A stretch of DNA of 64,000 nucleotides from assembly GCA_028280505.1 (NCBI GenBank), contig JANQLO010000019.1:62001-126000 (forward strand), read 5' to 3'. The position numbers and the translations under genes were made by a program. Below the pieces are notes generated by a model, which had not been told where the DNA came from, searched no databases, and worked only from the letters and a program-made list of their open reading frames with translations. The DNA comes from Chromatiales bacterium. Lineage in GTDB: Bacteria; Pseudomonadota; Gammaproteobacteria; Chromatiales; Chromatiaceae. Positions 2,799-13,712 of the stretch are shown here, in pieces. How positions within the stretch are numbered: position 1 is the first letter of the stretch; every line of letters starts with the position of its first letter.

Positions 2799-2987
2799 GT
2801 GGCCGAAACCCTATCCACACTGCCGATACAACTTCCGAAAACCGCTGCCAAAGCCCCGTCGACAGCGCTTCCCAAAATCAGCAGCGACCGTTTGTTTTCC
2901 GGCGGCAATATCCTGCTGATCGAACACAACGGCATCGACTACGTGCTGAGAAAGACACGTAACGGCAAATTGATTCTGACCAAATAA
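2799..2987 (+). CDS. hemP: Hemin uptake protein HemP, first copy
   Basis: A 62-residue protein with a GTG start at 2799. The C-terminal 36 residues carry the HemP signature: ISSDRLFSGG, then IEHNGIDYVLRKTRNGKLIL and a terminal TK. HemP is a short, Fur-regulated protein found with haem uptake operons; in Burkholderia-type bacteria it is reported to act as an activator of haem receptor genes, but its mechanism is not settled. The N-terminal 25 residues are Ala/Pro-rich and unlike the second copy at 7824. A Fur box sits upstream and the gene is divergent from the HemS-like operon. Confidence 0.9.
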   Translation: MAETLSTLPIQLPKTAAKAPSTALPKISSDRLFSGGNILLIEHNGIDYVLRKTRNGKLILTK

Positions 2988-3848: not shown

Positions 3849-4874
3849 ATGCAACGACCAGGATTTCTGGCGGCGGTCGCAGGGCTGTCGCTTCTTTTCG
3901 TAGGTCAGGCACAGGCGGCAGGTGAGCTTAACCTGTACTCGTCTCGCCACTACGATACGGATGAGCGACTGTACAGCCAGTTCGAAGAGAAGACCGGGAT
4001 CAAGATCAACCGCATCGAGGACAAGGCCGATGCGTTGATCGCCCGCATGAAGGCAGAGGGCAAGAACAGCCCTGCGGACGTGCTGCTCACCGTTGACGCC
4101 GGGCGGCTCTGGCGAGCCGATCAGGCCGGTTTGTTGCAGCCGGTCAAGTCCGAGACACTCGATGCCCGGATCCCGCAGTGGCTGCGTCACCCGGACGGCC
4201 ACTGGTACGGTTTCTCTCAACGGATTCGGATCCTGTTCTACGACAAGACCAAAGTGAATCCGATGGATATCTCGACCTACGAATCACTCGCCGACCCAAA
4301 GTTGAAAGACAAAGTGTGTACGCGTAGCTCCGGAAACATCTACATGCTGTCTTTGATGGCGGCAATGATCGAACACCATGGCGCCGATAAGGCCAAAGCC
4401 TGGGCGGAGGGTATGTGGAACAACCGGGCTCGTGATCCCGCGGGCGGCGACACCGATCAGTTGCGCGGAATTGCTTCGGGCGAGTGCGCAATCGCCGTGT
4501 CCAACACCTATTACTTCGCGCGGGCGCTGCGCAAGCAAGTCCGAGGGCTCGACGAAGCCGCCATGGCCAAGATCGGTTGGGTCTTCCCCAACCAGGACAG
4601 CACCGGCTCGCACGCGAACATTTCCGGTGCAGGCGTGGCCAAACACGCACCAAACCGTGAAAATGCCATCAAGTTCCTGGAATACCTTGCCAGCGATGCC
4701 GCGCAGGAATACTTCTCCGCCGGTAACGACGAATACCCCGCCGTCATGGGAGTCGGTCTTTCCGACAGCGTTGCGAAGCTCGGTATCTTCCGCTCGGATA
4801 CGGTAAATCTGTCTGCCCTCGGCAAGAACCAAACACAGGCACAAAAACTCTACGACCAGATCGGTTACAAGTAA
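3849..4874 (+). CDS. fbpA: Ferric-iron ABC transporter, periplasmic binding protein (FbpA/FutA type)
   Basis: A 341-residue precursor with a signal peptide (residues 1-23, cleavage after AQA) behind an AAAGAGGAAA ribosome-binding site. The mature start GELNLYSSRHYDTDERLYSQF is the typical opening of class-1 ferric binding proteins. The paired tyrosines in NTYYFAR (about residue 222) are the expected iron ligands near the C-terminal lobe. It captures Fe(3+) in the periplasm and delivers it to a permease of the kind encoded at 4983. It stands alone with its own Fur site and terminator. Permease and ATPase are not in the same operon, which is unusual for this family. Confidence 0.92.
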   Translation: MQRPGFLAAVAGLSLLFVGQAQAAGELNLYSSRHYDTDERLYSQFEEKTGIKINRIEDKADALIARMKAEGKNSPADVLLTVDAGRLWRADQAGLLQPVKSETLDARIPQWLRHPDGHWYGFSQRIRILFYDKTKVNPMDISTYESLADPKLKDKVCTRSSGNIYMLSLMAAMIEHHGADKAKAWAEGMWNNRARDPAGGDTDQLRGIASGECAIAVSNTYYFARALRKQVRGLDEAAMAKIGWVFPNQDSTGSHANISGAGVAKHAPNRENAIKFLEYLASDAAQEYFSAGNDEYPAVMGVGLSDSVAKLGIFRSDTVNLSALGKNQTQAQKLYDQIGYK

Positions 4875-4982: not shown

Positions 4983-6674
4983 CTAGGATTGAGCAACCAA
5001 CTGGGTAGACGTAGACGGTTTGTCCGCAGCACGCGACCCCGGCCGCGAACGCATGATGGCCCGGCTCATGACGAGTATCGGCAACAAGCCACAAGCCACA
5101 ATAACCAGCGAAGGTGTCGCCGCCTGCGCGAGGCGTTCGTCTTTGGCCAGGTTGTAAGCCTGAATCGCCAGGGTATCGAAATTGAACGGGCGCATGATCA
5201 AAGTCGCCGGCAGTTCCTTCATGACGTCGACAAACACGATCAGGCCCGCTGTCAACATACCGCCGGTCAGCATCGGCAGATGGATCCGCCAACCGGTCGA
5301 GAAAACACCGTGCCCCAAGGACTGTGCCGTGTGTTCCATCTGTGGCGTGATTTTTACCAGACTGGATTGAACCGTATGTAGCGCCGCCGCCATGAAACGG
5401 ACGAGATAGGCGAATACCAGTGCCGCGATGGTGCCACTTAAGATCAGGCCGGTACGTATCCCAAACTGTGCTTCCATCCAGGCACTGACCGCGTTGTCGA
5501 AAGCGGCTAAGGGAATCAGGATACCTACCGCAACGATCGATCCGGGAATCGCATAGCCCATGCCGGCAATCCGGTTGGTCAGCGCCGCGAGTTTCGATTT
5601 TTCAATCCGCGCGGCATAACTCAGCAGCAAAGCCAAAATGATGGCAAGCACCGCCGTAATGGATGCCAGCGTCACGCTGTTCAACGTTAACGTAATGTAA
5701 CGCGGGCTCATCAGATCGTGACCCGCCGTAATCGCCATCCATAGCAGTATCAGGAATGGCGCGATGAATCCGACGAGCAGCGGCAGCAGGCAGAACGCCG
5801 TCGCGGCAACGGCCCGGCCTCCGCTCAGATGAAACCGACGAATGAGCTGATAGCTGCCGTTCAATTGATGAAACCGGGCACGATAGCGACTGTACTGTTC
5901 GAGTAACAGCAAGGCGAAAACAAAAGCGAAAAGGATGCTCGACAACTGCGCGGCCGCGACCCGATCGCCCATCGACGTCCAGGTCCGGTAGATACCGGTC
6001 GTGAAGGTATTGATCCCGAAATGCGCCACGGTGCCGAAATCGGCAAGGGTCTCCATGAGCGCGAGGGCCACACCGGCGGCGATTGCCGGACGGGCCATCG
6101 GCACGGCGACTTTGACAAAACCGTTCCAGGGCGTGCGACCCAGAGTACGCGCCGCTTCGAAGGCCGAAACCGATTGCTCGAGGAATGCGGTGCGGGCCAG
6201 CAGGTATACATAAGGCATGAGCACCGCCGAAAAAATCATGACGGCGCCGCCGAGGCTGCGAATCTCAGGAAACCAGTAGTCTCTTATGCCCCAACCTGTG
6301 GCATCGCGGATCCAGGTCTGCAAGGGGCCTGCGGCCTGAAGAAAATCGGTATAGGCATAGGCAACGACGTAGGCCGGCATCGCCAACGGCAGAATCAGCG
6401 CCCATTCGAAAAAACGGCGGCCGGGAAATCGACACATGACGACGAGCCAGGCCAGTCCAACGCCGATGAAAGAGACCCCGACGGCCACACCGACCATCAA
6501 TAGGAAACTGTTGGTGATATAGCTCGGCAGCACCGTATCGACCAGGTGCGGCCAATTGCCCTGCCCCGGCTGGAAAATGCTCCAGACGACGCTCGCGATA
6601 GGTACGATGATCAGCGTCGCGATGAGTACGGCAATGCCGGTCAGCCATCGAAAACGCCCTCTTTTTCCTCTCAT
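4983..6674 (-). CDS. fbpB: Ferric-iron ABC transporter permease (FbpB type)
   Basis: A 563-residue inner-membrane permease with about twelve transmembrane segments in two homologous halves. Each half has the cytoplasmic EAA loop that docks the ATPase: EAARTLGRTPWNGF near residue 180 and EHTAQSLGHGVFSTGW near residue 450. Fused double permeases of this length are typical of FbpB/SfuB ferric-iron importers. The gene is convergent with the binding-protein gene at 3849 instead of following it, and the only matching ATPase in the window lies 25 kb away at 31256. The C-terminal 25 residues are polar and cytoplasmic. Confidence 0.92.
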   Translation of the reverse strand: MRGKRGRFRWLTGIAVLIATLIIVPIASVVWSIFQPGQGNWPHLVDTVLPSYITNSFLLMVGVAVGVSFIGVGLAWLVVMCRFPGRRFFEWALILPLAMPAYVVAYAYTDFLQAAGPLQTWIRDATGWGIRDYWFPEIRSLGGAVMIFSAVLMPYVYLLARTAFLEQSVSAFEAARTLGRTPWNGFVKVAVPMARPAIAAGVALALMETLADFGTVAHFGINTFTTGIYRTWTSMGDRVAAAQLSSILFAFVFALLLLEQYSRYRARFHQLNGSYQLIRRFHLSGGRAVAATAFCLLPLLVGFIAPFLILLWMAITAGHDLMSPRYITLTLNSVTLASITAVLAIILALLLSYAARIEKSKLAALTNRIAGMGYAIPGSIVAVGILIPLAAFDNAVSAWMEAQFGIRTGLILSGTIAALVFAYLVRFMAAALHTVQSSLVKITPQMEHTAQSLGHGVFSTGWRIHLPMLTGGMLTAGLIVFVDVMKELPATLIMRPFNFDTLAIQAYNLAKDERLAQAATPSLVIVACGLLPILVMSRAIMRSRPGSRAADKPSTSTQLVAQS

Positions 6675-7748
6675 GTTCTAGTGTGTCCCGTTTCCCACCG
6701 CGCCGCGATACCGGTAACCGGTCCGTTGCAACACCATTGACGCCGTCAAACGCGTTAAAACAAACGCCAACCATGTTGCCTTCACAGTTGGCTCCGTTCG
6801 GGGCCGGATGCATGATCTCCCAAACGGGAAAGTCACATTGAACGGCAACTCAAAACCCGCACAATCATTGCCCCGGCAGACCCTGGGACAAAAGCCCATT
6901 TGACCGTCCTCATTGCACCCTCGAATTCCGGGCTGAACGAACGGCCACGCGTTTTTAATGCATGACATTTACATCTCGGATGCGATTTTTCTGCGGACTG
7001 AGCGATACGTAAACAAAGAGCGTCGGTTTCACCGCCTGACAATCGGGTGTCCCGAGCCAGAAATCCGTTATGGCTCAAGCAAGACATACCGTGCAGAAGA
7101 AAAGCGGTGGAAGCTGCGCTTGCGTGGTGACGCATCCGTTCACCGGATGCGATCCGTGCTCATTTTATCGTTGTCAGTACCGCTGATCCAGTCCTGCACC
7201 CGATCCGATAGGACATTGGCCGGAGCGCCATGGCGCAAGAAACTCATGTACAACACGCTTTGCTTGGTCTGCGGCGCAACGTGCACAGCTTTCGTCGACG
7301 TCAGAGCAATGTGGCCGTTCTTCATCAACTCGGAGAAACGAAAGTCATCCACCTCCACGTTAACCAAGGATGGCAAATACCGCCTGGCCGTGCAGTTCGA
7401 CAGCATCACCGATGAGAAGTACCGGACGCTGCTAAACGCCTTATCGGATGTCGAAATCGGTTTGAACATCACACCAACGGTAAAATGAGTAATGGCCAAG
7501 GCATTGCAAACTGGATCGCTCAATCACGTCGCTCCGCTACCCGGCGGCAGAGTACGTCGGCCGCAACGTTCTCCGACCACATACCGCCGCCCTCACCACC
7601 CACCATCGTGTTCACCGATCCCAAAACTGGTTCGACTCCGACATCCGCAGAGTCGCCTGTAAGCATTTGGGAGTCTTTCCCGGCCAGCCGTTCGAACGCA
7701 TACCAACGGTGGTACATCCCATAAATGTACAATAACCTACACACAATT
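6675..7748. other. One kilobase without a confidently assigned gene
   Basis: Open frames exist on both strands (plus strand 6958-7488; minus strand 7140-7523) and overlap each other, and neither has a recognised family or a good ribosome-binding site. The end of the plus-strand frame, with YRLAVQFDSITDEKYRTLL, resembles the tail of a PilZ-like domain, so a decayed gene is possible. The minus-strand frame has no landmark. I do not call a gene here. Confidence 0.4.
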
Positions 7749-7767
7749 GCGAATGATTCGTATTGAC
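7749..7767. promoter_or_regulatory. Probable Fur box of the second hemP operon
   Basis: The site gcgaatgattcgtattgac differs from the Fur-like site of the first hemP (2724) at only three of 19 positions. It matches 11 of 19 positions of the classical consensus and lies 57 bases upstream of the hemP start, the same distance as in the first copy. Confidence 0.75.
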
Positions 7768-7823
7768 TTTTCTCGCCTGCGCATTACACTTCGGTGAAAA
7801 GCAGATGATCGAATCCGAATCGA

Positions 7824-8012
7824 TTGAGCGACGACCACCCTACTCAGCCAAATCGAGCTCCGCAGGATGCAGACGATGACTCGCCTGGCAAAGTGCCCCG
7901 CATCAGCAGCGAATCCTTATTCGCAAAAAGTGACATGGTTTTGATCGAACATCAGGGTGACGTATACGCGCTCAGAAAAACACGCAACGGTAAATTGATT
8001 CTGACCAAGTGA
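7824..8012 (+). CDS. hemP: Hemin uptake protein HemP, second copy
   Basis: A 62-residue protein. The first usable codon in frame is TTG 7824; no ATG is available in frame near it. The C-terminal half repeats the HemP pattern: ISSESLFAKSDMVLIEHQGD, YALRKTRNGKLILTK. The last 12 residues are identical to the first copy (2799), while the acidic N-terminal tail differs. It heads a string of small protein, DUF2325 protein and two FeoA-domain proteins that are probably cotranscribed from a Fur-controlled promoter. Confidence 0.88.
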   Translation: MSDDHPTQPNRAPQDADDDSPGKVPRISSESLFAKSDMVLIEHQGDVYALRKTRNGKLILTK

Positions 8013-8102
8013 ATCGACAACGACCAGCAGCAAGCCAGGGATCCATTTCCACCCGAAGCCAGCCACCCGCTCGTTAATTGCAGCAAAACCGGAGGCTTGC
8101 AT

Positions 8103-8351
8103 ATGTGTGGGACAGCTCCCCCGATCGACCGGGCGGCCGATGCCGTCGCTCGGCACCTTGGGCCTTTAATCAGACATTACGGTGAGACGCGTTCGCCTCG
8201 GATCGCTCAAACGGTCGCCCGGCAGATAGACATCATGTGTGACCGGCATGCTGTCGAGGGTGGCGTTGCTGAACGCAGCGCGTATTTGCGGTTACGTGCA
8301 CATTGGCGACTATTGGCGATGGCACCCATGCCACCCGACGCTAGTCCGTAA
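8103..8351 (+). CDS. Small helical protein, second of three family copies
   Basis: An 82-residue protein. ATG 8103 is chosen because GGAGG sits seven bases upstream; an upstream TTG at 8097 would be too close to it. It shares the layout of the proteins at 2300-2590 and 32926-33186: LGPLIRHYGETRSPRIAQT, DIMCDRH and YLRLRAHWRLLA. It lies between hemP and the DUF2325 gene. The function is unknown; repeated occurrence beside hemP suggests an iron-related regulatory or scaffolding role. Confidence 0.78.
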   Translation: MCGTAPPIDRAADAVARHLGPLIRHYGETRSPRIAQTVARQIDIMCDRHAVEGGVAERSAYLRLRAHWRLLAMAPMPPDASP

Positions 8352-8356
8352 CCGCT

Positions 8357-9886
8357 ATGTGCCGGTCTAACAACCACACGCACGGCAACCGGACTTCAAC
8401 GTATGGATCATCGATGACCGACGATGGTCAACCGTTACGATTCACCATCGAACTGGATAGCGCAACAGCCCGCATACGTGTTTTGGATTACACATCCGGT
8501 GATGTGCTCACCGAGTTCGACGAACAAACCCGTCGAACACTGCTGGCCGAAAGTGACGATGAGTCAGTCAGTGCCACCGCTTTGAGCAAAGCAGTTCTGA
8601 ATATGGTGCGACCCACGCATGCACCGGAACCGCTCACCTATGGCCTGACCTCACAAATGCCCGAAGAGCAGCAGGTTGCGGAAAGCGGCCAATGCAATCG
8701 CCGCAAGACACGGCGCAAGCTCTGGGAGCTCGCGCATAAGCTGCACTGCCCGGTCATCGGTACCTGTCTCGATACCGATGAGCTACGCCAAATCGCACGC
8801 AAGGCAGGGGCCAAACCCAGCGGCGTGCTAACCGACTACGACGTCCACCTTAGCTTCGTGTCGGCGGCCGATGACAAGAATCCGTTGTCACTTGCCGCAC
8901 ATAAAGCGCTGGACAAAAAGTACGCGAGCCAGGTCAAACGCTTTAGCCGCGCCAAGACCTTGGAGCAACTCACGGAGTTATGGGAAGAAGGCCTCGCCCG
9001 GGGCGAGGCGCCCAGTGCACTCTGGGCCACATTGACACACCCTGCTTGTGACGATGCCCTGAAAGCTCGCACATTCGAAGAGATCCATATGCTGTCGCAC
9101 CAGATCGGTGCCGGGCAGCGTGCCGATCTCAAACGGCTAAAAGAGGCCGAAGCGGAATTACAGACCCTGCAACGCGACTTCGATGCCGCACAGAAGCGCC
9201 ATTGGTGCCAGCTTGAAGAGCGCGAGCACCGAATCTCCGTGCTCGAAAGGGAACTCAACGAGGCCAATCAACACTGTCGAGGGCTGCTCAAAACCGAGTC
9301 ACAATTACGCCACGATATCGCTGAAATACGCACGCACAGTAGCCAGCAACACATTGATGAATTGACTGACAGCCTGGCCAATCACGAACACCGGTTAACT
9401 GTTCTCCGGCATCGAGCCGAAACGCTCGAATCCGCGCTGACTGCCGCCGAGCAAGAAGCCGCCCAATTGCAATCCGAAAATGCAGAACTGACAGCTGAAT
9501 GCGCCGCCATGGAAGGCTTCATTACGCAGTCACTGGATGTCTGTGACGCCTGCGAAAAACCTGATTACGAGGACAACCCGGATCTCGGCGGTCGCCGTAT
9601 CCTCTGTGTCGGAGGCCGTAGCCGCCTGATAGATCAATATCGTGAACTGGTGACACGCTTCAATGGACGCTTCGAACACTATGACGGCGGTATCGAAGAC
9701 AACCGTCAACGCCTGTACGCGCTGCTATCGTCCGCCGATGCCGTGGTCTGTGCGACAGATAACGTCAGCCACGATGCCTACTATCGGCTAAAACGGTATT
9801 GTAAGCGCAGCGAGACACCACACGTATTCCTACGCAGTTCAGGCATCTCCTCATTCACCCGTGCACTTTATGGCATGGCGCCCTGA
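8357..9886 (+). CDS. DUF2325-domain protein with coiled coil
   Basis: A 509-residue cytoplasmic protein. Residues 250-395 form a long heptad-rich coiled coil with many Glu/Gln/Leu. The C-terminal 95 residues are a DUF2325 domain: RRILCVGGRSRLIDQYR, HYDGGIED, SADAVVCATDNVSHDA and a final SSGISSFTRAL. DUF2325 proteins are of unknown biochemical function and recur near hemP and FeoA-like genes. The CDACEKPDYEDN segment just before that domain has two cysteines that could bind metal, which is an inference. ATG 8357 lies six bases after the preceding stop; ATG 8414 is an alternative start. Neither has a good ribosome-binding site. Confidence 0.85.
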   Translation: MCRSNNHTHGNRTSTYGSSMTDDGQPLRFTIELDSATARIRVLDYTSGDVLTEFDEQTRRTLLAESDDESVSATALSKAVLNMVRPTHAPEPLTYGLTSQMPEEQQVAESGQCNRRKTRRKLWELAHKLHCPVIGTCLDTDELRQIARKAGAKPSGVLTDYDVHLSFVSAADDKNPLSLAAHKALDKKYASQVKRFSRAKTLEQLTELWEEGLARGEAPSALWATLTHPACDDALKARTFEEIHMLSHQIGAGQRADLKRLKEAEAELQTLQRDFDAAQKRHWCQLEEREHRISVLERELNEANQHCRGLLKTESQLRHDIAEIRTHSSQQHIDELTDSLANHEHRLTVLRHRAETLESALTAAEQEAAQLQSENAELTAECAAMEGFITQSLDVCDACEKPDYEDNPDLGGRRILCVGGRSRLIDQYRELVTRFNGRFEHYDGGIEDNRQRLYALLSSADAVVCATDNVSHDAYYRLKRYCKRSETPHVFLRSSGISSFTRALYGMAP

Positions 9887-9890
9887 TCGT

Positions 9891-10148
9891 ATGAGCGACA
9901 AGTATGCACCTTATCCGCTCAGTGCCACCTTACCCGGTATCGACGTCTACATCACGGAGGTCACTGCGCCTCTGGCCGCCGAACGCTTGGAAAACCTCGG
10001 CGTTTGGATCGGTGACTGCCTGAATGTCGGCCGACTGACTCGCCACGGCGTATTTGTGACCGCCGCCAACCGCGCGCCTATATTGCTACCGCAACATCTT
10101 GCCCGATCGATCATGGTCCGACGACGCAATACGGCCGACACGGGATAA
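9891..10148 (+). CDS. Stand-alone FeoA-domain protein, first of a tandem pair
   Basis: An 85-residue protein starting at ATG 9891, five bases after the DUF2325 stop; an in-frame ATG at 9870 is possible. The second half follows the FeoA SH3-like pattern: LENLGVWIGDCLNVGRL, HGVFVTAANRAPILLPQHLARSIMV. FeoA normally supports the FeoB ferrous-iron channel, but no feoB is present in the window. Together with the next gene it forms an isolated FeoA pair tied to DUF2325 and hemP, so a regulatory or adaptor role is more likely than direct transport. Confidence 0.78.
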   Translation: MSDKYAPYPLSATLPGIDVYITEVTAPLAAERLENLGVWIGDCLNVGRLTRHGVFVTAANRAPILLPQHLARSIMVRRRNTADTG

Positions 10149-10153
10149 AGCCT

Positions 10154-10423
10154 GTGATCATACAAACCCGGGCCGACAAAGCATCGAAACGCAAGCGCCT
10201 CAGCGAGGTGCTGACCGGCGAACGTGCCGTCATTGTGTGTTCGGAAAGTCCGATCATCGATCGGCGCATGATGGTGCTCGGCCTGATCGACGGCGTGGAA
10301 ATCGAAATCGAGACCCGAGGCAGACGCGGTGATCTAATTCTCGTTACCGAAGGCAAACGTTTCCATATCCTTTCCCACTACGCCAACAAGATCTGGGTCG
10401 ACCCAATCTTCGCGAGCCAGTAG
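10154..10423 (+). CDS. Stand-alone FeoA-domain protein, second of a tandem pair
   Basis: An 89-residue protein with a GTG start at 10154, six bases after the previous stop. It is a clearer FeoA match than its neighbour: LSEVLTGERAVIV, RRMMVLGLIDGVEIEIETRG and HILSHYANKIWV follow the usual order of FeoA strands. FeoA domains are small SH3-like modules that act with FeoB or as C-terminal parts of iron regulators. It ends the hemP/DUF2325 string; a perfect eight-base-pair inverted repeat overlaps its stop. Confidence 0.82.
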   Translation: MIIQTRADKASKRKRLSEVLTGERAVIVCSESPIIDRRMMVLGLIDGVEIEIETRGRRGDLILVTEGKRFHILSHYANKIWVDPIFASQ

Positions 10424-10446
10424 GATCTGAAACACAGCTCAGATCC
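10423..10446 (+). repeat. Inverted repeat at the end of the hemP/FeoA string
   Basis: GGATCTGA and TCAGATCC form a perfect eight-base-pair stem around an eight-base loop directly at the stop codon. There is no T-run behind it, so it is not a standard terminator, but it could protect the 3' end of the message. Confidence 0.45.
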
Positions 10447-10823
10447 AAGCACTCCAGTCAAGATTTTCTGATCGAACAAGATGTGGCCGTAGATTTCACA
10501 TCGGCAACCCCAACCACTCGCGATGACCTGGACAAAAGTCGATTCGGGCCAAATTTTCCCCAATACAACGCATTCACGTATCCGAGCGACAGAAAATCAG
10601 CCCGTGCCAAATCATTTGAGCTTCAAATAAAAATTTCAATAAATCAATTAGTTAAATAAAATTTTAATAGCAGATTCAATAACTCGATTACGCAATATCG
10701 GCTGATGCCCGAAAAACCTTAATGCGAATCGTTGCTATTTCGTTTTCCCTTTGCTAGATTACGCCGCAAGCGTCGTAGAGAAAGTTTTTCCGTACTGAAG
10801 TTACATGAACGTAGATTTAATCG
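10424..10823. other. AT-rich promoter region of the 20 kb pilus/imelysin block
   Basis: These 400 bases hold no convincing gene. Around 10620-10690 the sequence is strongly AT-rich, unlike the coding DNA. A weak Fur-like site lies at 10724-10742 and the first gene of the block starts at 10824 or 10830. Confidence 0.55.
10724..10742. promoter_or_regulatory. Weak Fur-like site ahead of the 20 kb block
   Basis: The site gcgaatcgttgctatttcg shares GCGAAT, TT and TATT at the same spacing with the second hemP site (7749), but matches the classical Fur consensus at only about eight of 19 positions. It lies 80-100 bases upstream of the first gene. Confidence 0.4.
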
Positions 10824-11042
10824 ATGCCCATGGCCAAGAGCACAACCGAAAACAAGGAAATTCTTGAGAAGCTGCAACAGCTTTACCGAGAGATCTTTGC
10901 CCACGACGGTTACGGCGATCTGCGTGTCGAAATGCGCATCCTCCGCCGTGGGCAAAAAGAAGTGATCATCCATTGCGGCAAACAGTATCGCTATGTCGTG
11001 GATTATGAATCCAACGCACTGATTGCCGAACAATCGAGCTGA
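10824..11042 (+). CDS. Small protein, paralogue of the one that closes the block at 30324
   Basis: A 72-residue protein (ATG 10824; ATG 10830 is equally possible). The pattern ILEKLQQLYREIFAHDGYGD, then LRVEMRILRRGQKEVIIHCGKQYRYVV is shared almost position by position with the protein at 30324-30725 (helix, HEGYGD, RLLNR, GKEYRYQV). The predicted fold is one helix followed by three strands. No known family was recognised. Its place in front of the pilus-like genes, 83 bases behind a Fur-like site, suggests a regulatory or adaptor role for the block. Confidence 0.72.
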   Translation: MPMAKSTTENKEILEKLQQLYREIFAHDGYGDLRVEMRILRRGQKEVIIHCGKQYRYVVDYESNALIAEQSS

Positions 11043-11294
11043 GGGGAGCTATCGGTTCGACAAAAAATCCTGGTTTCATACCTCACCAGGTACAACCGAT
11101 GGCCAAGGTCGGCAATCGAGGCTCCCGGGCAGGGAAGCCACCTCTTTCAGACGACGGCGAGGGGCCGTGTCGAAGAATCGGTGCGATGTGCGCGGCGCGC
11201 ATGCACCAAAACTAGAAGACAGACACAAACCCCAGGCACATGGTCCCCCGCGGGCGGGGAGATGCGGCCGACAGATTGAAAGAGAGACATCTTG

Positions 11295-12347
11295 ATGAAC
11301 ATGAAATCTATCCTGAAGCACTTCGACCGTATCGAAGCGTCTTCTATCACCGATGCCAAAACCGCTAAACGCGTCGCCAAACTACAGGCCAAGCGTAAGC
11401 AGGGTGGCTTCACGCTGCTGGAACTCCTGGTCGTCGTCGCCATCCTGGCCGCAATCGCCGGTACCGCCACCATCGCACTGCAAGACACCGACGCACGTGC
11501 ATCGGCCGCCGCGCACGTGGCTATGATGGACGAACTCAACGAGGGTATTCGTACCTATCGGGTGTTGAACAAAAACACCTACCCGACCAACTTCGATTCC
11601 TTGATCGAGACCACGTCCAATGACACCTCCTTCACCGGTGCCGCACTCATCGACATCGCCGCACTCGAGGATCTACAGGCCGTTACGCTGACCGTGGACG
11701 CCGCCGAGCGTATGTCGGACATCGGCATCAACGGTTTGATGGTCGCACACAACGATGCTGGTTCAAACCCGGACGGCGACGGCGATTGCTCGGACTTTGC
11801 CGGCCTGATCGCCAGCCGGGGCAACGCGGTGGTTGCCGGCAACATCTTCCTGACACCGGCCGCCAACGGTTGCGGCTACCAGTGGCAGAACATCGACAGT
11901 GACGATACAACCGACGGTTTCCAGCTCAACGGCACCCCCAGCGTCATGATCTGGAACGGCGGCTATGAGCGCATCCTCGGCTTCGACGGTATCGCGATGG
12001 ACGCCCAGATGACCGCGGACGCAGACGGCAATTACACCACCTTCACCGCGGATGCCGACGATGACACGGCCGATCCGATCGTGCTGATGGCGGTCGGTCT
12101 CGGCCCGTCATCCAACCTGTTCAACGCCAATGAACTCGGTGGCCTGACCTCGGTGCCGGTTTACCGCCACGTATCCGAAACCGAGTACAACCGTTTCATC
12201 GCACTGTTCAATATCGGCACCTTCGTTACCGGCGGTATCACCTACACCCCGGCCGACCAGGTGACCCTGGTAACCATCATCGATGGTGCCGGCGACACCA
12301 AGGAAGAGGAATTGGGCGAGTGGGACGGCACGCGTAACACCATCTAA
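11295..12347 (+). CDS. Large pilin/pseudopilin with long leader (GspG-like)
   Basis: A 350-residue prepilin. ATG 11295 follows AGAGAG. The type IV prepilin signal is clear: GG at residues 37-38, then FTLLELLVVVAILAAIAG with Phe at +1 and Glu at +5, so a prepilin peptidase should cut after residue 38. The leader is unusually long (38 residues against 5-20). The mature protein of 312 residues is over twice the size of GspG and has Asp-rich loops such as DADGNYTTFTADADDD that may bind calcium. A terminator follows the gene, as expected for a major subunit that is made in excess. No prepilin peptidase gene lies in the window. Confidence 0.85.
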   Translation: MNMKSILKHFDRIEASSITDAKTAKRVAKLQAKRKQGGFTLLELLVVVAILAAIAGTATIALQDTDARASAAAHVAMMDELNEGIRTYRVLNKNTYPTNFDSLIETTSNDTSFTGAALIDIAALEDLQAVTLTVDAAERMSDIGINGLMVAHNDAGSNPDGDGDCSDFAGLIASRGNAVVAGNIFLTPAANGCGYQWQNIDSDDTTDGFQLNGTPSVMIWNGGYERILGFDGIAMDAQMTADADGNYTTFTADADDDTADPIVLMAVGLGPSSNLFNANELGGLTSVPVYRHVSETEYNRFIALFNIGTFVTGGITYTPADQVTLVTIIDGAGDTKEEELGEWDGTRNTI

Positions 12348-12767
12348 CCCGATGGTTGGCTGAACGCCATCGTGTACCAGGCCACAAGGACGTGGCCGAT
12401 GCGAAATACACGCAGGTTTTCGTGTGACTCCAATTGGCCGGCTGGTCCGCCAGCCGGCATTTTTTCGACGCTTGCGATCAGATCATCACGCGCCGTATCG
12501 CTACACGGTGATCTGATCGGAGCCTTCGAAAGGCAAGCAAAAACAGGCAAAAGACGTCAAGGGGACGATGAATGCCGACTGTCGAAACCACATCTTCGGC
12601 AGCATAAAACCGGGCTTTGCGGACAATACCGCAACCGTGTGAAGACCATTCCGGCAAACGGTTCCCGACAACGGGCACGCATCGGAATCACGTGTCTTCA
12701 TTCACGCCATGGTTTCGTACCCTCCCCTGCGCGTCCGGCGCCATACGAAAGTGCCAAGAGAAAACCC
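12348..12767. other. Gap between first pilin gene and the rest of the operon
   Basis: This 420-base stretch has no supported gene. The reading frame of the next pilin is open through it but has no credible start before 12768. It contains the strong terminator at 12437-12465, so most transcripts of the first pilin gene should end here. Confidence 0.6.
12437..12465 (+). terminator. Intra-operon Rho-independent terminator
   Basis: A perfect nine-base-pair stem (GCCGGCTGG with CCAGCCGGC) with a TCCG loop is followed by a run of six T. It lies 90 bases behind the first pilin gene and should lower expression of the downstream machinery relative to that pilin. Confidence 0.85.
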
Positions 12768-13712
12768 GTGAAGCGCGTAACAACCTTCCAACAACCCGAC
12801 AACGGCCGAGTGGGCGTTCGCACTAAAGCGATAGGCCCGCGCTCGCGGCATGCCGGTTATAGCCTGCTGGAGTTGCTGGTAGTGGTCAGTATTCTGGTAG
12901 CGGTTGCCCTCATCGCCACGGGTTCGATGGACGGTGTGGATCGCGCCGCACAAGCGAATATCGTTAGTGCCGAAATGCTGGAAATCGCCAAGGCGATCAA
13001 GCAATTCAAGGCGGATACCGGCTACTACCCGGGTCAAGGGCCGTTCGCACTGCTGGAAGACGTCAATGTGGGGGCTTATACATGCGCCAATGATGCAGCC
13101 GACTCGCCAGGTGCCGTCGATATCGATGATCCGTCGATCGTTTCGCGCGCATGGTTCGAATCACCTGCAAACCTGGTTCAACTGCTCGAGAGACCGATAC
13201 TCTGTACCGGCCATCCACTCGCATGGCTCGCCGACGACTGGGATCCGGTCACCCGCCGAGGGTGGCGCGGCCCGTATCTGCAAACCCTGGGCGAGGGCTT
13301 CGTATCCATCGGCGATGACACCAACCCCGACGAGGCCTACGAAACCGGTGATCCGGAAATCGTCGCGACTGCGCAAATCGATGATGTTCCGGGGATTGCC
13401 GACCCTTTCGAGCACCGTCCTGTAAATGGACTCATGGCCTGGAGTGCCACACCGATCGCGGACGGCGGTATGCAACGCAAGGTGGCGGGCCGTCCTTATC
13501 TTGTGTTTCTCAACGATTACGGTGCCGGCGGTGGGATCGTCACATCGCTCGAACACCCTCGCATCGTCAGCATGGGGCCGGATGGCCTGTACGCCGGTTG
13601 CTATGACGATAACGGTGACGGCGACTGTAACGACCCGGGGGATGGAGAAAACCCATGTCTGCCCAACATCGACGGCGTAGAAACCGACGACATCATTCTG
13701 TGCCTGGAGTAG
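12768..13712 (+). CDS. Large pilin-like protein (second)
   Basis: A 314-residue protein. GTG 12768 is chosen because AAGAG lies just upstream and gives a 30-residue leader; an ATG further upstream would give an implausible leader of 160 residues. The prepilin signal reads AG, then YSLLELLVVVSILVAVALI with Glu at +5; Tyr at +1 is less common than Phe. The mature part begins with the usual helix (AEMLEIAKAIKQFKADTGYYP), as in GspG/PilE proteins, and ends in a loop with DDNGDGDCNDPGDGEN that looks like a calcium site. It is probably a minor subunit of the fibre. Confidence 0.82.
   Translation: MKRVTTFQQPDNGRVGVRTKAIGPRSRHAGYSLLELLVVVSILVAVALIATGSMDGVDRAAQANIVSAEMLEIAKAIKQFKADTGYYPGQGPFALLEDVNVGAYTCANDAADSPGAVDIDDPSIVSRAWFESPANLVQLLERPILCTGHPLAWLADDWDPVTRRGWRGPYLQTLGEGFVSIGDDTNPDEAYETGDPEIVATAQIDDVPGIADPFEHRPVNGLMAWSATPIADGGMQRKVAGRPYLVFLNDYGAGGGIVTSLEHPRIVSMGPDGLYAGCYDDNGDGDCNDPGDGENPCLPNIDGVETDDIILCLE

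Follow-up and report, generated by a model that had tools for sequence, protein, structure and literature searches.

We describe an operon of five genes at positions 7,824–10,423 of a 64,000-nucleotide stretch of DNA from a Chromatiales bacterium (GCA_028280505.1, contig JANQLO010000019.1, positions 62,001–126,000), hereafter the window, in which hemP, a gene for an 82-amino-acid protein, a gene for a long protein with a DUF2325 domain (hereafter the core gene and core protein) and two genes for FeoA-like proteins stand head to tail on the plus strand, with short gaps, downstream of one promoter (Table 1). An earlier note on this DNA had already read them as five small-to-medium genes behind a single Fur-like site, and gene calls, Pfam matches and a conserved 19-mer over the promoter show this arrangement to be real. 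The operon is highly likely to be part of the response to iron starvation, as indicated by its Fur-like promoter, the iron neighbourhoods of its relatives, the link between its core gene and hemP, and a division of the family between Fur-like and ModE-like control. That it is, with every step of the mechanism counted in, a Fur-repressed iron-starvation operon with a metal-handling core protein is in our judgement a reasonably probable reading. Pfam gives no function for DUF2325, and in a literature search that left out most subscription journals the domain was rarely named, its accession PF10087 was not named at all and titles on ModE and NifQ included none about the long DUF2325 family. The division between two regulators, across which the invariant residues stay the same, makes such a domain the subject of a testable claim on how cells handle two unrelated metals.

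The 19-mer that overlaps the −35 hexamer of the operon promoter recurs, at 16 or more of its 19 letters, in all five related loci searched (L009, the paralogous locus in the window's own genome, and L010, L021, L022 and L023), where a −10-like element stands beside most copies and the flanking sequence has otherwise diverged. A second copy lies in the window itself, between the divergent second hemP and a second homologue of the 82-residue protein, in an intergenic region with 15 of 19 matches to the Fur consensus. A member of the Fur regulon should have its site over the promoter, and this is the arrangement found at the window operon. The best ModE-like box before the window copy matches at 12 of 22 letters, a score reached by 161 of 200 shuffles. 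The window copy of the core gene is on the Fur side of the family.

Relatives of the core gene are found among iron genes. In a first set of 26 loci (2 from the window's genome, 6 from relatives and 18 from a sample of 369 genomes in the class, which, like the phylum and order samples, is a draw from a larger group), the neighbours include TonB receptors at 10 loci, hemP at 9, bacterioferritin at 6, FeoA and HmuY at 4 each, and CobN/HmuS-like proteins and ATP-binding cassette (ABC) permeases at 3 each; the labels 'HmuS', 'Fbp' and 'ModE_HTH' were assigned from seed sequences and their representatives checked by Pfam. The earlier note had proposed a module for iron sensing or storage instead of a transporter; the iron module is supported, and storage or sensing may be no more than candidate roles, bacterioferritin standing at some of the 26 loci but TonB receptors at more. 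It had also proposed a search for conserved clusters of DUF2325 with FeoA and hemP, and the link among the three recurs elsewhere, in these loci and in the distance between core gene and hemP. A hemP is present in 15 of the 25 genomes that hold the core gene. Of these 15, 6 have the two genes at most 1 kb apart (0.02 would be expected by uniform placement), 8 at most 5 kb apart (0.08 expected) and 12 at most 30 kb apart (0.41 expected); in 3, no hemP stands on the core gene's contig. The six closest pairs comprise three from the window's genus and three from three other families, and the link between DUF2325 and hemP holds without FeoA too. The 82-residue protein is encoded near the core gene at 6 of the 26 loci by BLAST clustering and at 8 by profile at an E value of 1e-4 or better, and its homologues either precede DUF2325 or adjoin HemS, hemP and haem receptors. 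It has no match in Pfam, PHROGs or PADLOC; an AlphaFold2 (AF2) model of three helices, at a predicted local distance difference test score (pLDDT) of 87, has no match in the PDB at E 0.001 or better.

Other small genes recur in these neighbourhoods. One Cys-conserved family stands by the core gene at L009 (13585–13935), L070 (7482–7751), L082 (8516–8767) and L085 (2396–2641); two members scanned had no Pfam match, and one homologue adjoins the 82-residue protein in L091. Another (L073, 5734–6093; L075, 8267–8740; L079, 5866–6186), with no Pfam match in the one member scanned, occurs in haem loci, where it directly adjoins either the core gene or hemP. At L024, the core gene sits between feoB and nifE/nifN-like genes and has a weak Fur-like site, and at L121 a hemP (8320–8556) and a DUF2325 gene of the short form are about 2 kb apart. 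A 327-residue gene beside an 82-residue homologue in L088 matched the HemS seed, but no Pfam family at 0.001.

A second part of the family stands among molybdenum genes. On Burkholderiales and Rhizobiales replicons, homologues of the core gene adjoin modABC, a gephyrin-like MoeA, NifQ and a one-domain helix–turn–helix (HTH) protein, which matches HTH_1 alone in Pfam, with no molybdate-binding domain; the Azospirillum, Shinella and Ensifer copies examined have no clear molybdenum gene annotated nearby. A ModE-side copy in Methylorubrum extorquens CM4 is plasmid-borne. In a tree of 45 sequences, all 11 rows with molybdenum neighbours share one fork of 16 rows (support 82/75), from which rows with iron neighbours are absent and within which an inner fork of 13 is supported at 100/98. 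Of the 29 rows outside it, 20 have iron neighbours, 7 have neither kind and 2 have both. This clustering of labels was matched in 0 of 500 shuffles for iron and 0 of 500 for molybdenum. Two of the molybdenum labels are weak, that of L028 depending solely on MoeA and that of L031 on a ModB match that is itself weak; both loci carry ModE-like boxes. Short or broken forms (L120, L121, L122 and L032) were excluded from the trees and from the box counts.

Control by two regulators follows the same division. Boxes were scored against consensus sequences, with gene starts approximated from the HC motif. In a first test of the 45 rows, covering 960 bases around the start and using random control windows that could overlap the site itself, Fur-like boxes of at least 13/19 were found at 23 of the 32 rows outside the 13-row molybdenum clade and at 0 of the 13 inside it (Fisher 7e-6). 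When only rows with a G+C content of at least 0.55 are taken, the counts are 14 of 20 outside and 0 of 12 inside. ModE-like boxes of at least 15/22 were present at 13 of 13 rows inside the clade and at 1 of 32 outside (L080, 35% G+C). Seventeen later loci, scored with control windows that excluded overlaps with the site and including some near relatives (L160 to L079, L154 to L156), gave 6 Fur-like and 4 ModE-like boxes and none with both. A tighter test of 62 loci (350 bases plus 60, 200 dinucleotide shuffles each, a box being counted when at most 4 shuffles scored as high) gave 19 with Fur only, 17 with ModE only and, again, none with both.

In a quick tree of these 62, 16 of the 17 rows with ModE boxes form one pure clade, with a support of 99 in the Shimodaira–Hasegawa-like approximate likelihood ratio test (SH-aLRT). 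The seventeenth, L150, is placed apart, next to L148; its ModE-like box scores 20/22, and genes for a molybdopterin oxidoreductase and a one-domain HTH protein stand beside it. Because L150 lies outside the main ModE clade, this tree implies at least two origins of ModE control, or else a larger number of losses. One genome, G663, holds both kinds, L115 being ModE-like and L118 Fur-like. We regard it as very probable, from these sequence patterns, that the core family serves a general role in metal shortage, under the control of either iron or molybdenum. A haem-only role of the core protein was rejected as a general explanation because homologues stand under ModE-like boxes among molybdenum genes.

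In the core protein, an N-terminal Cys/His domain without a family is linked by a coiled coil to the DUF2325 domain. Among 14 homologues of gamma-, beta- and alphaproteobacterial origin, representing the iron as well as the molybdenum side, 30 residues are invariant; these include H110, C111, G115, T116, C117, H144, H208, H224, M225, L226 and H228 in the N-terminal domain and G399, G400, D423, G424, G425, H452 and C462 in the DUF2325 domain. No family in Pfam or NCBIfam matched the N-terminal domain above its cut-off in six members scanned, and the viral contigs searched held no relative. The coiled coil also matched SMC, Rad50 and PADLOC models, which we read as chance coiled-coil similarity, as we did the matches of a PDB sequence search, which were of coiled-coil type among the 60 listed.

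For the core protein itself, we tentatively put metal handling first, as something short of an even bet. A role in sensing, the main rival, is unlikely, if still to be taken seriously: the protein would be a regulator or co-sensor that reads metal by its Cys/His domain and acts on HemP or on the one-domain ModE-like HTH protein to tune uptake genes. Regulator genes are often its direct neighbours on both sides (hemP on one, HTH_1-only proteins on the other), and HemP acts as a regulator in published cases (PMC9131926, PMC9241770), its relatives binding haem and regulating receptor genes in the former. The core protein, however, has no DNA-binding domain in Pfam and NCBIfam scans, the labels searched mark no regulator near many of the loci (for example, L076–L078 and L082) and hemP is absent from 10 of the 25 genomes holding the family.

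Published background on the domain includes the short DUF2325 gene cj1384c of Campylobacter jejuni, which is among the genes with a Fur repression motif and, with cj1383c, is highly iron responsive (PMC4491227). It adjoins katA and a haem-trafficking gene, rises 352-fold under bactericidal violet-blue light and encodes 7 Cys in 104 residues (PMC9426514). These last features would suit a thiol or redox protector that acts under metal shortage or peroxide, not a metal carrier. We hold such a role to be improbable for the long family, which carries Fur-like and ModE-like boxes and has an invariant set that is His-rich as well as Cys-rich; molybdate control fits a peroxide role poorly. Relative to Cj1384c, which has in common with it the DUF2325 domain, a Fur motif and a link to iron, the long family adds the Cys/His domain and the coiled coil. 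Elsewhere, an Ensifer DUF2325 gene was used in quantitative PCR (PMC6637203) and a DUF2325 protein was named as a possible encapsulin cargo (PMC6934571).

The two FeoA-like proteins of the operon were compared with copies that accompany FeoB, in 25 rows of which 5 come from modules like the window's and 20 adjoin feoB, in 19 fetched stretches and the window's genome; feoB was found in 18 of the 19 stretches, L170 having feoB without a FeoA row and L171 giving neither feoB nor, by the seed profile, FeoA. Of the five module copies, four, representing two bacterial families, form one clade (SH-aLRT 99) apart from the 20 FeoB-adjacent copies, the second FeoA of the operon (10154–10423) clustering with the module copies of L010, L022 and L069. 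The first (9891–10148) has a very long branch and an unsure placement; we name it FeoA-like only, because its score falls below the cut-off, though nearly the whole FeoA profile is aligned. FeoA-family proteins would gain by this a setting other than FeoB, which bears on what FeoA does.

FeoB is absent from the operon, as the earlier note had stated, but not from the genome, where two feoB genes are present, both accompanied by a feoA of their own. One set, feoA–feoA–feoB, lies on the operon's contig at about 53.4–56.2 kb, about 14 kb upstream of the operon; the other, feoA–feoB, is on another contig, which also carries a second long DUF2325 gene led by an 82-residue homologue, with hemP 2.9 kb away. 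The argument drawn from a missing FeoB therefore falls. The counter-scenario raised with it, a feoB elsewhere that had lost its FeoA and would be served by these two, fails as well, since both feoB genes keep FeoA and the second module FeoA is in its own clade. The presence of two feoB genes could be taken to mean that the operon is an ordinary Feo accessory locus, its FeoA proteins serving FeoB elsewhere and the rest being incidental. We consider this very improbable, as each feoB has its own feoA, the clade of the second module FeoA is DUF2325-linked in two families and the association with hemP stands without FeoA. Feo transport by the five-gene set was likewise rejected, since FeoB is encoded at other loci together with a FeoA and the second FeoA of the set belongs to another clade.

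Several results weigh against a Fur-repressed operon with a metal-handling core protein. The site at 7749–7767 is weak by score, with 12 of 19 matches to an Escherichia coli-type Fur consensus, and 33 of 300 shuffles score as high. Neither box was found at 7 of the 17 later loci, among them L148 and L152, which have bacterioferritin and TonB-labelled neighbours, and L153, which has CobN and TonB; in the tight test, 26 of the 62 loci had neither within 350 bp. This last count arises in part because hemP or a small gene stands first, and the window itself is counted there because its site precedes hemP, about 650 bases off. The family is sparse, with matches in 19 of the 369 genomes of the class, the window's genome included, and FeoA follows DUF2325 in only 4 of the 26 loci. 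In one of the modules, the FeoA frame of L010 (7299–7598) matches module FeoA only over the first approximately 40 residues, perhaps through a frameshift. The AF2 model of the core protein, built with three sequences, is poor (pLDDT 62, predicted template modelling score 0.25) and so provides no evidence of its fold.

We propose that, when iron is low, Fur would leave the site at 7749–7767 and the promoter at 7763–7790 would transcribe all five genes as one message. HemP would then tune haem and siderophore receptor genes, as do its studied relatives. The core protein is predicted to be a cytosolic metal-handling protein produced in metal shortage, which may bind a metal or metal cofactor via the invariant HC-xxx-GTC, His and HMLxH set, pair through its coiled coil and pass on, or report on, metal that enters by uptake or comes out of storage; the FeoA-like proteins would be its docking partners, and not those of FeoB. 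The same family would have moved under ModE at least twice, to a matching job in molybdenum shortage. Stated at its broadest, long DUF2325 proteins might form an undescribed class of cytosolic metal-shortage protein, with one Cys/His chemistry put to iron or molybdenum according to Fur or ModE, at least two switches of regulator, at least one genome holding both kinds and a FeoA of its own recruited in the window's lineage; this is possible, and in so full a form we lean slightly against it.

The operon resembles several known systems in part. Haem uptake operons led by HemP or HmuP (hemPRSTUV, chuPRSTUV and hemP–hemA–smlt0796–smlt0797) likewise have hemP first behind a Fur site, and some relatives of the module are also in haem loci, with TonB receptor, HmuY, ExbB-like and CobN-like genes; the window operon, however, lacks both a receptor and a haem permease, and the long DUF2325 protein with the FeoA-like proteins forms its core. 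With ferrous iron transport by FeoA–FeoB–FeoC, it has FeoA-family proteins in common, but it lacks FeoB and its second FeoA is in a separate clade. Genes of the ModE regulon (modABC, NifQ and molybdoenzymes) include homologues of the core gene with ModE-like boxes, whereas the window copy sits on the Fur side.

Table 1 Features of the operon and of its surroundings in the window (positions are those of the window)
Feature	Position	Strand	Remarks
Fur-like site, near-palindromic	7749–7767	− (strand of match)	Overlaps −35 hexamer TTGACT
Sigma-70-like promoter, TTGACT-16-TACACT	7763–7790	+	−35 overlapped by Fur-like site
hemP (HemP/HmuP family small regulatory protein)	7824–8012	+	TTG start; Pfam hemP 59.6 bits, cut-off 25
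82-residue helical protein, unnamed family	8103–8351	+	Between hemP and DUF2325 gene
Long DUF2325 protein, approximately 490 residues	8414–9886	+	Pfam DUF2325 (PF10087) 88.4 bits, cut-off 33.6
N-terminal domain without family, residues 95–240	8699–9136	+	Invariant HC-xxx-GTC, H144, H208, HMLxH
Long coiled coil	9053–9535	+	Helix 213–373 in AF2 model (well-scored part of poor model); coiled-coil database matches
DUF2325 domain (CVGG, DGG, SHD, C462)	9596–9868	+	Pfam alignment 394–484
FeoA-like protein 1, divergent	9891–10148	+	FeoA (PF04023) 20.9 bits, below cut-off 23
FeoA-like protein 2, DUF2325-linked FeoA clade	10154–10423	+	FeoA (PF04023) 35.1 bits, cut-off 23
72-residue gene after operon	10824–11042	+	Operon membership uncertain; homologue directly behind TonB receptor (L090)
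HemS/ChuX-domain haem protein	1344–2303	−	Pfam HemS 33.3 bits, cut-off 24; behind 82-residue homologue
Second homologue of 82-residue protein	2300–2590	−	Faces second hemP
Second copy of the Fur-like 19-mer	2724–2742	−	Between divergent second hemP and second 82-residue homologue
Second hemP	2799–2987	+	Pfam hemP 59.2 bits
ABC transporter solute-binding protein	3849–4874	+	Pfam SBP_bac_8 and others; putatively FbpA-like by our reading
Two-domain ABC permease	4983–6674	−	Pfam BPD_transp_1; read as FbpB-like; NCBIfam matches all below cut-off

The left 11 kb of the window form an iron island, in which a HemS/ChuX-domain gene, an 82-residue homologue, the second hemP and ABC genes lie beside the operon. 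No terminator-like site was found on the plus strand within 7500–11200. The 72-residue gene has no Pfam family, and its upstream region has no Fur-like site scoring above shuffles; in the haem locus L090, its homologue is also near HemS and a periplasmic binding protein. Pseudopilin-like genes follow to the right (11292–13712), with GFTLLELLVVV-type N-terminal segments as judged by reading only. To the left, on contig C63 and overlapping the window's edge, L007 (11867–16733) encodes a DUF2202 ferritin-like protein, a P-type ATPase with HMA_2, and YtxH-like and HMA_2 proteins, adjoining feoA–feoA–feoB. This P-type ATPase cluster may resemble ferrosome (fez) clusters, as a candidate.

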